Assembly: GCA_016215465.1 (NCBI GenBank)
Contig: JACRJT010000051.1
Span: 1-64,000, forward strand
Source of the DNA: Nitrososphaerota archaeon
GTDB taxonomy: Archaea; Thermoproteota; Nitrososphaeria; Nitrososphaerales; Nitrosopumilaceae
DNA length: 64,000 bases
Direction: 5' to 3'
In this document: positions 18,489 through 63,544 of the stretch, piece by piece
Numbering within the stretch: the first letter of the stretch is position 1
How the letters are laid out: each line of letters starts with the position of its first letter
Program-made: the position numbers and the translations under genes
Notes under the pieces: generated by a model
Told to the model about the DNA's origin: nothing
Databases searched by the model: none
The model's input: the letters and a program-made list of their open reading frames with translations, nothing else

Positions 18489-19435
18489 TTATGCAGTTTC
18501 CATACCCGCAAACCAATCAGTCCTGTTTTTGTCAGGATTTGGTTTTATAGGTGCGGAAGGATCATCAGTGTTTTGAGCTACCGGTGACCGCCAGGTTTCC
18601 TCCCTATTTGATTCGGCCGGAGAAGGAGTGCTGACAGATGCGCCAAGTGGCTCTACATGATGCGGTCCCAAAGATTGACTTACTTGCACGTTCGTCTGAT
18701 CAGGATTCGGTGCTTCAGTTTTCACTTCGTTTGCGTGGTAAGAAGGCGGTGTGTGAGATTCGACTTGTTTTCCATCGTTGGTTACAAGGTATGAAACTGC
18801 GGATTGTTCTATTTGCTCTTTTTGGTTTATCTGTGTTTGAGCTCCATCCAATGACATGTCAGTCATTCTTCTTTGGATGTTGACAATCTCTGCTTTTTCA
18901 TGATCAATATGCTCTATTATTTCACCAGTATTGGTCTTTATGAGATCATATTTTGATTCAGAGATTTCGTTGCTCTTGAATTGTACCTTTGCGTCAAATA
19001 GCAAAATCTTGACTGATTTTAGTTGGCCGTTTAGTTCTTCTAGTCGTTCTGTTAGTTTGTATGTGATTTGTTTTCGGCTTCCTCCAGTGTCAGCAGTTTT
19101 GACTTGTACTTTTCATGGATGATTTCTGCGTCGTCTCGCATGTCGTCGTTTTCTGAAACTATATCAATTAACGCCTTGAGACGTCTTAATGTGAGTCCTT
19201 TCTCACGCAGGAATCGTTGTGAATCGAGTCTCCATTTTGGTATAAAGATCACGACTTCGCCCTGAACTACGAGTTGTTCAAATGGGACTTGTCGCAGTCC
19301 TTCAAGACCACAATCAATTCCCACAGTCTGCACGGAGCCATCAATGTCAGTTATTGTTCCAATAACTTTACCCATGTGGGTACCGTACATGTCTTTGACT
19401 TGCTTGCCGATAATCTCTATTTCGTCCTTGTTCAT
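18489..19435 (-). pseudogene. cdvA: CdvA cell-division protein, split by a frameshift
   Basis: CdvA recruits the ESCRT-III-like CdvB in archaeal cytokinesis. The frame from ATG 19435 gives the PRC-barrel-like N-terminus (KDMYGTHMGKVIGT...FIPKWRLDSQRFLREKGLTLRRLKALI) and stops at 19052 after LLTLEEAENKS. The coiled coil continues in the -1 frame (RKQITYKLTERLEELNGQL) to a Pro/Ser-rich linker and a C-terminal peptide RTDWFAGMETA, ending at 18489. One missing base near 19073-19077, perhaps in a short C run, would restore about 315 residues. Because CdvA is expected to be needed, a sequencing error is at least as likely as true loss. Confidence 0.75.
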
Positions 19436-59518: not shown

Positions 59519-60613
59519 ATGTCAGAGAGAATTGTGTTCCATGTTGATTTTGATTATTTCTACGCCCAATGCGAGGAGATCAGAAATTCCAGTCTAAGAA
59601 CAAAGCCGGTCGCAGTCTGCATATTTTCGGATAGAGGAGGAGATAGTGGTGCAATAGCAACTGCAAACTATATTGCAAGAAAATATGGCGTAAAGTCAGG
59701 CATGCCGATTAAATTTGCAAAAGCTCGGCTAAAGCAAATTTCAGATGCTGTTTTTTTGCCAGCAGATTTTCCGTATTATTCAGACATTTCCGAAAAAGCA
59801 ATGGAAATAATGAAAAACCATGCAGACGTTTTTGAATATGTAGGACGGGATGAGGCTTACCTTGATGTGACAAAAAGAATACAGAACAATTTCAAAAACG
59901 CAAGCCATCTTGCCCAGCAGCTCAAAAACCAGATAAGAAACGAAATCAAAATGACGTGTTCAGTTGGCGTATCAGTCAACAAGCTTGTCTCAAAAATTGC
60001 TTCAAGCCATAAAAAACCAGACGGGTTGACCGTGATAGAACCGCAGAACACAGAATCATTCTTGGCACCGCTCAAAGTAAGCGATATTCCAGGAATAGGC
60101 AGGGTTACTGAGGAAAAACTTCACGAAATAAATCTAAACACAATAGAGGAGTTACGCAAAGTTGACATTTTTACTCTAAACAAAATGTTTGGCAGAAAGA
60201 TTTCCCTTTACATCTACAATGCTGCAAGGGGCATAGATGATGAGCCAGTAGCAGAAAGACAGCCAACCATACAGTACAGCAGAATAGTCACATTAAAAAA
60301 AGATTCAAAGGAATTAGATTTCCTTGCGAGCAGTCTTGAAGAGATATGTATTGATGTGTACGAAACTGCAGTTAAAAACAAAAAAATGTTCAAATCAGTT
60401 GGGATTCAATTCGTACAATCAGATTTAGCAAGCAAGACAAAGTCAAAGATGCTCAAAAACCCAACATTTAGCCTTGAGGAACTAAAAAAGACGGCGCATC
60501 AGCTGCTAGAAGAAGCTTTGATTGACCAAACATTAAGCGTTAGAAGATTGGGAGTAAAAATTTCAGAACTGTCAGACCTACAAGGGCAAAGTTCGATTAC
60601 TAACTTCTTTTAA
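59519..60613 (+). CDS. dinB: DNA polymerase IV (Y family, DinB/Dpo4-like)
   Basis: A 364-residue translesion polymerase. Metal-ligand motifs are VDFDYFYAQCEE and YVGRDEAYLDVT (the usual SIDEAYLD with Gly-Arg in place of Ser-Ile); palm and little-finger regions follow. It ends in GQSSITNFF, a PCNA-binding peptide with Ile and FF in the right spacing. Its 3' end overlaps the start of the next minus-strand gene by 4 bp. Confidence 0.95.
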   Translation: MSERIVFHVDFDYFYAQCEEIRNSSLRTKPVAVCIFSDRGGDSGAIATANYIARKYGVKSGMPIKFAKARLKQISDAVFLPADFPYYSDISEKAMEIMKNHADVFEYVGRDEAYLDVTKRIQNNFKNASHLAQQLKNQIRNEIKMTCSVGVSVNKLVSKIASSHKKPDGLTVIEPQNTESFLAPLKVSDIPGIGRVTEEKLHEINLNTIEELRKVDIFTLNKMFGRKISLYIYNAARGIDDEPVAERQPTIQYSRIVTLKKDSKELDFLASSLEEICIDVYETAVKNKKMFKSVGIQFVQSDLASKTKSKMLKNPTFSLEELKKTAHQLLEEALIDQTLSVRRLGVKISELSDLQGQSSITNFF

Positions 60614-61527
60614 GATACAAGTCGTTTCATCCGTTTTGTTTCAATCGATGTTACGATGAGTAAGAATATGAAAATCCAAGGCAAGAACATTATTTCTCCT
60701 GCAATACCATGAAATTCTTCAAACTTGTTGGGATCAGTAGAAACCTTGAGTACGAATATGGATAGGGAGAATATCCTAATCATGTTTATGCCAATGGTTC
60801 CAAGTATTCCAATGATAAAGTATACTGCCTTGCGTTTTCGCTCTATGTTCATCTTTAGCAAAAATGCCATCATGACAAGCGAGTAAATTATAATGCTATG
60901 AACTCCCGCCGATGGCCAAAATACCTGCAGTGCCATTGGTCCATGCTCTCCTCGCAGCAGCATCAAATTTTCTTTAGCAATTGCAGTGCCAAGATCCAGA
61001 CTGTTGATGATCCAAACATTCGTCTTTACTAAATATGGTACCACATATTGAAGCGGTCCAAGTGTGTCGTAAGGAAAGAATGCATCAAGGGATAGAATTG
61101 CCGCACTGCCACAAAGAAAGATAGGCCCTGCAGGAGCAATGCGTATCCATTTCTTTCCAAACAGTATACTTACTACGGCAACCAAAAATACGCCCATTAT
61201 GACAAAATCCCACATCCATGCCCACGAATCTACAAGATGGACATTAAACTGAGGAGCCACATTTACAAGATAGTCCTTCAGACTATGTTCACGTATTACA
61301 AGATATGCGATAGCTGCACCAGCAAGCGGAATGGTTGCAAGTACTCTTTTTTTAGACACTTGAAGTTTAACTCCAATTAGCTCTGCAATGATGAATGCCA
61401 TTGCAAAAAGGAATCCTCCACGCCCTTGGTTCCAGCTTAGACTAAACGTGTCAGGATATACTACAAGTGCAAACAAGACAGGACTAATAATTATCATAAT
61501 TGCAAGAAGGAGAGTTTTATTTTGCAA
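60610..61527 (-). CDS. Exosortase/archaeosortase-superfamily membrane protein
   Basis: A 305-residue protein with about eight helices. The superfamily catalytic triad is Cys in a C-S-G-type loop, Arg, and His. Here the loop reads FWPSAGVHSIIIY, with Ser where Cys is expected; Arg is kept in NMIRIFSL and His in FEEFHGIAGEI. It is probably a thaumarchaeal archaeosortase-like protein acting on surface proteins, but whether Ser supports catalysis is open. No sorted substrate with a C-terminal recognition motif was identified nearby. Confidence 0.75.
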   Translation of the reverse strand: MQNKTLLLAIMIIISPVLFALVVYPDTFSLSWNQGRGGFLFAMAFIIAELIGVKLQVSKKRVLATIPLAGAAIAYLVIREHSLKDYLVNVAPQFNVHLVDSWAWMWDFVIMGVFLVAVVSILFGKKWIRIAPAGPIFLCGSAAILSLDAFFPYDTLGPLQYVVPYLVKTNVWIINSLDLGTAIAKENLMLLRGEHGPMALQVFWPSAGVHSIIIYSLVMMAFLLKMNIERKRKAVYFIIGILGTIGINMIRIFSLSIFVLKVSTDPNKFEEFHGIAGEIMFLPWIFIFLLIVTSIETKRMKRLVS

Positions 61528-61590: not shown

Positions 61591-62136
61591 TTATTTTCTC
61601 TTTATAGTTAGAGTCTTTTGTATCTCATTTATGCCGCTGATGAACTTTTGTTTTGCATCATATTCGTTTGAGACCTTCACTATTATTTCAGATGAAGAGA
61701 GCAGTACATCTTTTACAACTAATGGAATGCTCAAGCCAAGCAATTCCCCAAGAAAGTCAAACAAATTCTGAAATTTTGCAGAATCGCGGTAATGAAACAA
61801 AACATTTCCATCTCGGAATATGGGTTTTGGATCAAGCGGAATTACCAGTTCTGGGGAGCTCATCTCGGCGATGAATGTGTCAGTGTCTTTCTTGATTGAT
61901 GACGCAAGCTGATCCTTTTGTGATTCAAGATTGAGTTTCATTTTTTCTAGTTGCTCCATTTGATCCTCATACTGGACTCCTATCATTTTTGCAAATGTCG
62001 ATTCTGTCGGTTTTTTTAGTGGTAGTTCGTGGAGCCGCATGTTCACTGACTTTAGTTCCTCATCTACTTGATGCAGATTAACTCGCTCAGACTTGACTCT
62101 TTTTGCCAAATCTTCTAAAAAATTGAAATCAGCCAT
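61591..62136 (-). CDS. Coiled-coil protein next to tubulin-like GTPase
   Basis: A 181-residue protein. Residues about 10-95 are coiled coil (SERVNLHQVDEELKSVNMRLHEL...DQMEQLEKMKLNLESQKDQL); a compact C-terminal domain (LFHYRDSAKFQNLFDFLGELLGLSIPLVVKDVLL) follows. It starts 17 bp after the tubulin-like gene ends, on the same strand, so it is a candidate partner or regulator. No family is recognised. Confidence 0.6.
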   Translation of the reverse strand: MADFNFLEDLAKRVKSERVNLHQVDEELKSVNMRLHELPLKKPTESTFAKMIGVQYEDQMEQLEKMKLNLESQKDQLASSIKKDTDTFIAEMSSPELVIPLDPKPIFRDGNVLFHYRDSAKFQNLFDFLGELLGLSIPLVVKDVLLSSSEIIVKVSNEYDAKQKFISGINEIQKTLTIKRK

Positions 62137-62152
62137 AATTATGAAACCTAGC

Positions 62153-63544
62153 TCAGCTAAACTGGTGCACTACATCCATCAGGCTTTGCTTAAAGTCCTC
62201 AGTGGTTAGCCCCCATTTGCCGTACTCGTCTTTGTAGGCATCCCAGGATTCTTCTGCCTCGCGTGCAATGTCTAAAATCTTAGGACCGATTGCCTTTGTG
62301 TTGACAAGTATTGTGACGTTTGCCTGTTCTTTATCTAGAATTGGAATCTTGACAAATATCATTCTTGAATCCTCGATGTTGAATTTGTCTTTGATTACTC
62401 GTTTGAGAATTTCTCTTTCTTTGATGTCAAATTCCCCCTTTACTTTAACTAGCGCGCAGCATGAATCCTTCGGTCCACCGTGATTTCGAACATCAGTTTC
62501 ATCAATATCAAACAGTAAGGCGTCTTGTTTTTTGTTAATGTTCTCAATGATAGAATCCATTGTGTTGCGCTTGTTGCCAGTTAATTGGTCTAGGCTCCAC
62601 TGATCTTCATCAGGCAAGACAGGTATTGCCCACGGGACTGCAAACTTGGGGCGTTTTGTCGCAAGCCACGTCCTATAGTTAGACATGTCCCATTCCGTTT
62701 CTCGTGCAAACGATGATACGTACATGGATATGGCATTTGCCGCAATCAAATTCATTCCCTTGTAGTCTTTCCATCCAACTTCGTGTTCTCTTGGCAGGTC
62801 ATCAATAATAGATGGAATCTTTTCTACTCGTTTTTCAAACTTGTGTGCAACCTCTCGTAGTCGTTTATTTGAAAATAAAATGGAGCAATCGCTGAACTTG
62901 ATTTGGTATTCAAGATTCATTACAATGTTAATTGCAGCTGCTTCCAAGATCACAGGGTCCCAACCAAATTCCGGAAGCAGTCCCAGTGTTGCAATTGTCG
63001 CGTGTTCTTTTGTATTGCTTCGAATAAACTCGATAAATGAGCATGCAAATGAGCTTCCAGTTCCGCCACCCATTGCAAATGGCACCACATAGCCTCGGAC
63101 AGGCTCTGGTGATAATGCAGATAGCTGTTTGGTAAAATCCCATTTTTGGGTTATTTCATTTTTGAATCTAGAGCGTCCTTCCGCCCAGTTTCTTGCAGCA
63201 CCTCCTGCGCCGTGAATCACATGTTTGTCACGCAGGGCAAAAAGGTCTGGATATGACTGCAAGATAAGATTAGCTGCTCTCGGATCCAAGTCAACTAGTA
63301 GTGCTCGGGGGATTAACGGGGTTTCCCCTCCAGTGTAAGCTCCAGGAAAACGCAAAATTGTACTTCCGTATCTCTTAAGAATTCGGGATTCGTCTTTACT
63401 GTCTTTTAAAACAGGTTTTAGCGGGTCTGCACCCACATCTAGCAACAGCCTACGATAGGATTCTGCTCCAAGGCCTATCCCACAGTGACCAAAACATGTC
63501 ACCAATACGGGTGCAGGCGGGAGTGGCGCTGTACCTTGTGACAT
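62153..63544 (-). CDS. Tubulin/FtsZ-superfamily GTPase, tubulin-like
   Basis: About 463 residues from ATG 63544; a longer frame reaches 63628 with no good start. T1 is CFGHCGIGLG, the next block PRALLVDLDPRAANLIL, then NWAEGRSRF, and the nucleotide-loop signature GGGTGSSF (last Gly changed to Ser). ILFSNKRL matches the tubulin S6 region. These resemble tubulin more than bacterial FtsZ. The T7 catalytic loop (N-x-D in the family) is not conserved: the region reads EWDMSNYRTWL. It could be a divergent thaumarchaeal FtsZ or an artubulin; GTP hydrolysis may be weak. Confidence 0.88.
   Translation of the reverse strand: MSQGTAPLPPAPVLVTCFGHCGIGLGAESYRRLLLDVGADPLKPVLKDSKDESRILKRYGSTILRFPGAYTGGETPLIPRALLVDLDPRAANLILQSYPDLFALRDKHVIHGAGGAARNWAEGRSRFKNEITQKWDFTKQLSALSPEPVRGYVVPFAMGGGTGSSFACSFIEFIRSNTKEHATIATLGLLPEFGWDPVILEAAAINIVMNLEYQIKFSDCSILFSNKRLREVAHKFEKRVEKIPSIIDDLPREHEVGWKDYKGMNLIAANAISMYVSSFARETEWDMSNYRTWLATKRPKFAVPWAIPVLPDEDQWSLDQLTGNKRNTMDSIIENINKKQDALLFDIDETDVRNHGGPKDSCCALVKVKGEFDIKEREILKRVIKDKFNIEDSRMIFVKIPILDKEQANVTILVNTKAIGPKILDIAREAEESWDAYKDEYGKWGLTTEDFKQSLMDVVHQFS

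Follow-up and report, generated by a model that had tools for sequence, protein, structure and literature searches.

Does an ammonia-oxidising archaeon that divides by Cdv also carry a separate tubulin-type filament system? The question is raised by two adjacent genes in a 64,000-nucleotide stretch of DNA (hereafter the window) whose source genome is a close relative of Nitrosotenuis. The first gene encodes a GTPase with tubulin-like segments and an altered catalytic loop, and the second encodes a coiled-coil protein. A first-pass annotation, made from the DNA letters and a list of open reading frames, had proposed that the two could form a cytoskeletal system of their own. Here, we describe what the GTPase is, how its T7 loop has changed, how tightly the second gene is bound to it and what the pair might do.

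Layout of the locus

The features discussed below all lie on the minus strand; coordinates are those of the window.

62153..63544, minus strand: gene for artubulin (463 aa), the interval taking in the stop codon (ATG at 63544, stop at 62153-62155)
63461..63496, minus strand: T1 segment CFGHCGIGLGAE, residues 17-28, containing GHCGIGLG and aligned with tubulin G10-Q11-A/C12
63281..63295, minus strand: VDLDP segment, residues 84-88, aligned with tubulin VDLEP (D69/E71)
63050..63070, minus strand: T4 segment GGGTGSS, residues 159-165, with G-G-T-G invariant in 41 artubulins
62750..62752, minus strand: N265 at the start of helix H7, the counterpart of the guanine-contacting Asn228 of tubulin in the HHalign register, invariant in 41 artubulins
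62663..62704, minus strand: residues 281-294, RETEWDMSNYRTWL, covering the rewritten T7 loop and the beginning of H8
62137..62152, minus strand: intergenic gap of 16 bp, from the artubulin stop to the partner ATG
61591..62136, minus strand: gene for the coiled-coil partner (181 aa), which follows artubulin in every testable locus

On the 3' side of the partner lies a gene for an exosortase-like membrane protein (60610-61527, minus strand), a placement that we saw only in Nitrosotenuis-type loci.

The GTPase is an artubulin and belongs with tubulins

The T1, VDLDP and GGGTGSS segments had been called tubulin-like at first pass. All three sit in one 463-residue frame (T1 as GHCGIGLG), which matched the Pfam Tubulin family PF00091 with an E value of 3.8e-14 (53.8 bits, cut-off 33) and had Asgard AtubA and gamma-tubulin as its best PDB matches by phmmer. 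Profile alignment of residues 11-461 with HHalign gave E 5e-16 (local) against tubulins, compared with 2.7e-7 against FtsZ. In a tree, artubulin and tubulin were split from FtsZ and CetZ-like sequences with support of 100/99, on long branches; the CetZ-like sequences, which fall on the FtsZ side, come from archaea of the host phylum and are the tree's only sampling of CetZ. The AlphaFold2 model of artubulin is poor (pLDDT 43) and was dropped as too weak a source of T7 geometry; in a fold search with this low-confidence model, the 50 best matches listed were all tubulin entries. Trees, profiles and fold searches thus place artubulin with tubulins, not FtsZ, and the suspicion that the protein is not an FtsZ was borne out by phylogeny.

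The assignment of the 62153-63544 protein to the artubulin family is near certain. It is 92-97% identical to the proteins of Nitrosotenuis-type loci, including 97% to that of Ca. Nitrosotenuis chungbukensis, and about 76-82% identical to those of other genera (Nitrosotalea- and Nitrosarchaeum-type, with 76-79% for Nitrosarchaeum-type loci); as a yardstick, artubulins of described ammonia-oxidising genera are 79% identical to each other. The GTPase is therefore of a known kind: the family has been known since 2012 (Yutin and Koonin; PMC3349469), and its presence in Ca. Nitrosotenuis uzonensis was reported in 2013 (PMC3835317). Where exactly artubulin falls among tubulins is left open by later papers (PMC9871819, PMC13394414). 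We found no report of artubulin function, including polymerisation or GTPase activity, in the open-access papers searched. It has been suggested in print that artubulins may be related to the ancestor of eukaryotic tubulins.

One record labelled Gammaproteobacteria bacterium BBSC-SA02 has a Nitrosotenuis-type artubulin locus, 94% identical (L007), and is probably a mislabelled or mixed assembly. Searches of mobile elements gave two IMG/VR matches (L168, L169), which are small phage structural-type proteins with only the peptide AARNWAE in common and were rejected as relatives. The partner had no IMG/VR match, the plasmid search returned no match and the phage search returned a single weak one (E 2e-3).

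The T7 loop has been rewritten

The first-pass annotation held that the T7 N-x-D motif is missing. Three alignments gave the same register: HHalign against tubulins, HHalign run separately against archaeal FtsZ, and MAFFT on a joint set. In this register, tubulin N249-x-D251-x-x-E254 corresponds to artubulin E284-W-D286-M-S-N289. The Asn is indeed gone, along with the catalytic acid, but the Asp is kept (D286), so the loop is rewritten from NxDxxE/D to ExDxxN, with two residues deleted just before the motif, and not simply absent. A placement of T7 at GMNLIAAN (263-270), which would mean loss of the Asp, was rejected by the profile alignments: this region is the start of H7 with its base-contacting Asn, and T7 lies at 283-289. 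In microtubules, Glu254 of alpha-tubulin activates hydrolysis in the next subunit and beta-tubulin has Lys there (PMC13394414). Artubulin has Asn289 in place of this catalytic Glu, and where canonical FtsZ has NxDxxD it reads ExDxxN in register.

Across 41 artubulins, no variation occurs at E284, W285, D286, M287 or S288; at position 289, the site of the catalytic acid, 40 have Asn and one has Ser. The whole segment RETEWDMSNYRTWL is nearly invariant in this set, down to 52% overall identity, indicating that the altered T7 is a conserved family trait and not a decayed loop. The pocket residues G19, D85, GGTG, N226, Y261 and N265 are likewise invariant.

These observations bear on whether artubulin polymerises at all. 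It could instead be a non-filamentous GTP sensor or regulator, with the partner as its effector or chaperone. Loss of the catalytic acid and a shortened T7 would suit such a protein, as would its extreme conservation across genera (mean column identity 85%) next to a partner that evolves faster (55.8% median identity where artubulin has 75-80%). However, the tubulin fold occurs chiefly in polymers, and the T7 Asp and the start of H8 show the strict conservation that a subunit contact would call for. We regard a sensor as rather unlikely.

The coiled-coil partner accompanies artubulin

The coiled-coil gene noted at first pass is present as described, on the same strand and 16 bases after the artubulin stop. 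In 88 artubulin loci, a set that counts some genomes twice, the partner lies directly 3' of artubulin in 83, always on the same strand and with gaps of 2-16 bp; at the remaining five (L004, L064, L052, L054, L056), the contig stops within or just past artubulin. Other neighbours vary among genera, and the artubulin-partner pair alone is constant. Seventy genomes in a draw of 200 from the family carry artubulin and partner, none carries artubulin only, 128 carry neither and two carry only partner relics bearing stops (L161, L162). Fisher's test on this co-occurrence gave p 3e-52, a value that ignores shared ancestry and so is not a probability. A class-wide draw recovered artubulin in three further families (f4, f5, f9), every time with the partner, at identities that fall to about 51% for artubulin and about 28% for the partner. 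The pair is also doubled as a unit in one genome (G248; L108, L123). Wherever co-occurrence could be tested, then, there was no exception, and the coiled-coil gene is more than a chance neighbour of artubulin. A further assembly-level observation is that L043 and L046 place the pair twice in one assembly.

Within the family, the two genes are also lost together. Each of the two relics fits one contiguous deletion, the loss at L161 resembling that at L162 and lying in a Nitrosotalea-like neighbourhood. Adjacency can yield a shared deletion without any functional need, a point against reading the two genes as a unit. In two genomes of one genus (G177, locus L163; G300, loci L164/L057), artubulin is cut at its 5' end, with the GTPase-domain half gone and no ATG, beside an intact partner, apparently a case of ongoing decay.

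One paper mentions in general terms that archaeal tubulin-like genes have coiled-coil neighbours (PMC9871819). In the open-access papers searched, we found no account of how universal the partner is, of the relatives it has apart from artubulin or of the T7 exchange.

The partner domain extends beyond artubulin

AlphaFold2 models the partner with confidence (pLDDT 92.1, pTM 0.78), and its two long helices agree with the coiled-coil call. The predicted architecture is a helical hairpin (aa 4-52 and 60-92), an alpha/beta domain (93-157) and a C-terminal helix (158-180). The protein has no Pfam or NCBIfam family match, and its fold has no PDB match at E 0.001. PDB sequence and fold matches were discarded as chance coiled-coil matches, and weak Pfam matches of partners (HMMR_N, Mis12 and others) as scattered coiled-coil noise. 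The families matched by 40 partners at E 0.1 did not include PF03357 (Snf7/ESCRT-III).

A deeper profile identified partner homologues in two families of the same order, f2 and f3 (L175-L191), in genomes where artubulin was not found. The f2 homologue is full-length (HHalign E 6.6e-33) and lies beside a radical SAM gene. The f3 homologue is a short form consisting of the C-terminal domain (HHalign 1e-21), with most of the coiled coil absent, and lies beside a Nep1 or phosphatase-like gene; this single-domain form is also near RNase P/ribosomal-type genes. A reciprocal profile built from f2 and f3 only recovered the artubulin partners (E 1e-21 to 1e-26), but where genomes of the host family have no artubulin it detected no intact homologue. 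The partner is thus older than artubulin or separable from it, and since it has relatives that occur without artubulin, its use is not limited to artubulin and it can serve another purpose. Its domain is spread over the order and is tied to artubulin in the artubulin-bearing families. The first-pass reading of the two genes as a pair stands as regards their constant linkage, but must make room for a partner whose relatives in two further families of the order have no artubulin beside them.

Upstream neighbours and the Cdv link

The only functional hypothesis that we found in print is the proposal of 2012, drawn from gene neighbourhood, that a Snf7/ESCRT-III gene is the functional neighbour of artubulin (PMC3349469). 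Artubulin would then act with ESCRT-III/Snf7 in cell division, and the coiled-coil gene would be incidental. A Snf7/CdvB-type gene does lie directly 5' of artubulin in seven Nitrosarchaeum-type loci (L042-L048), but only in these. The upstream gene is Nre in Nitrosotenuis-type loci and an unknown protein or others in Nitrosotalea-type loci and deeper lineages; that N. uzonensis is without a Snf7 neighbour had already been noted (PMC3835317). Moreover, L162 retains Snf7 and the flanking genes even though its artubulin is gone and its partner is a relic, and the neighbour that stays constant is the partner, not Snf7. The wider survey weakens the link to Cdv division, and we consider this explanation unlikely.

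In Nitrosotalea-like loci (L013-L041), two genes lie just 5' of artubulin, one for a TPR protein and one for a putative membrane protein that has no Pfam match. Bacterial tubulins likewise have a TPR neighbour, a likeness that may be due to chance.

CdvA is present in the host, which the first-pass annotation took to divide by Cdv, and so is a separate, divergent FtsZ. The CdvA gene (window 18489-19435, minus strand) is split into ORFs of 127 and 171 aa by an apparent frameshift near 19050-19082, which is either a sequencing error or a real break. We found two PF00091 genes in the genome, artubulin and the 314-aa FtsZ. The G-loop region of this FtsZ is degenerate and reads NLAGKAG, so that of the PF00091 proteins found in the genome, artubulin alone has an intact GGGTG loop. 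That artubulin is itself a divergent FtsZ with its function lost, as common superfamily membership and a Cdv-dividing host might suggest, is highly improbable: its placement with tubulins by tree and HHalign already refutes this, and it is strongly conserved across genera and coexists with a separate, far more divergent FtsZ.

Discussion

We favour the reading that artubulin and its partner are a two-gene unit, a GTP-binding filament plus an adaptor, and give this reading as a whole a probability of roughly 0.6. By analogy with tubulin and FtsZ, GTP probably occupies the usual T1-T6/H7 pocket of artubulin, and the protein probably assembles head to tail, with T7 of one subunit completing the site of the next. 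As the catalytic acid has become Asn and the preceding Asn has become Glu, hydrolysis would probably be slow or would proceed via E284, and the filaments might be stable or might depend on the partner for their turnover. One part of the partner may bind the filament, and the other part may connect it to some further structure. In the cell, the pair could serve shape, DNA organisation or membrane organisation beside Cdv division.

A more specific form of this model, in which the T7 catalytic acid has moved from the 254 to the 249 position and the partner controls assembly of a two-component filament system, is possible but doubtful. If true, a moved catalytic acid and a controlling partner would represent a novel mode of operation for a tubulin GTPase, and the partner family would predate its pairing with artubulin. 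From the T7 exchange, one would expect unusual hydrolysis, and the constancy of the partner provides a concrete handle on artubulin function. As a possible cytoskeleton of two components, the pair is a good candidate.

The closest described systems are the artubulins of Nitrosoarchaeum and Ca. Nitrosotenuis uzonensis (PMC3349469, PMC3835317), which are of the same family and have the same affinity to tubulin rather than FtsZ. Compared with described artubulins, the host locus is without a Snf7 neighbour; we found no discussion of the constant downstream partner or the T7 exchange in these two papers. The f2 and f3 partner-domain proteins are homologous to the partner, but have no artubulin and have other neighbours. 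With FtsZ, artubulin shares the superfamily, the GGGTG loop and the T7 Asp; it differs in lying outside the FtsZ clade and in having neither the Asn nor the final Asp of NxDxxD. Its likeness to eukaryotic alpha-, beta- and gamma-tubulins and to Asgard AtubA/B extends to a full-length profile match, the pocket residues and the position of T7. It departs from them in having Asn for Glu254 of alpha-tubulin (Lys in beta) and a two-residue deletion in T7, and, unlike the heterodimeric tubulins, it is the single artubulin of its genome.
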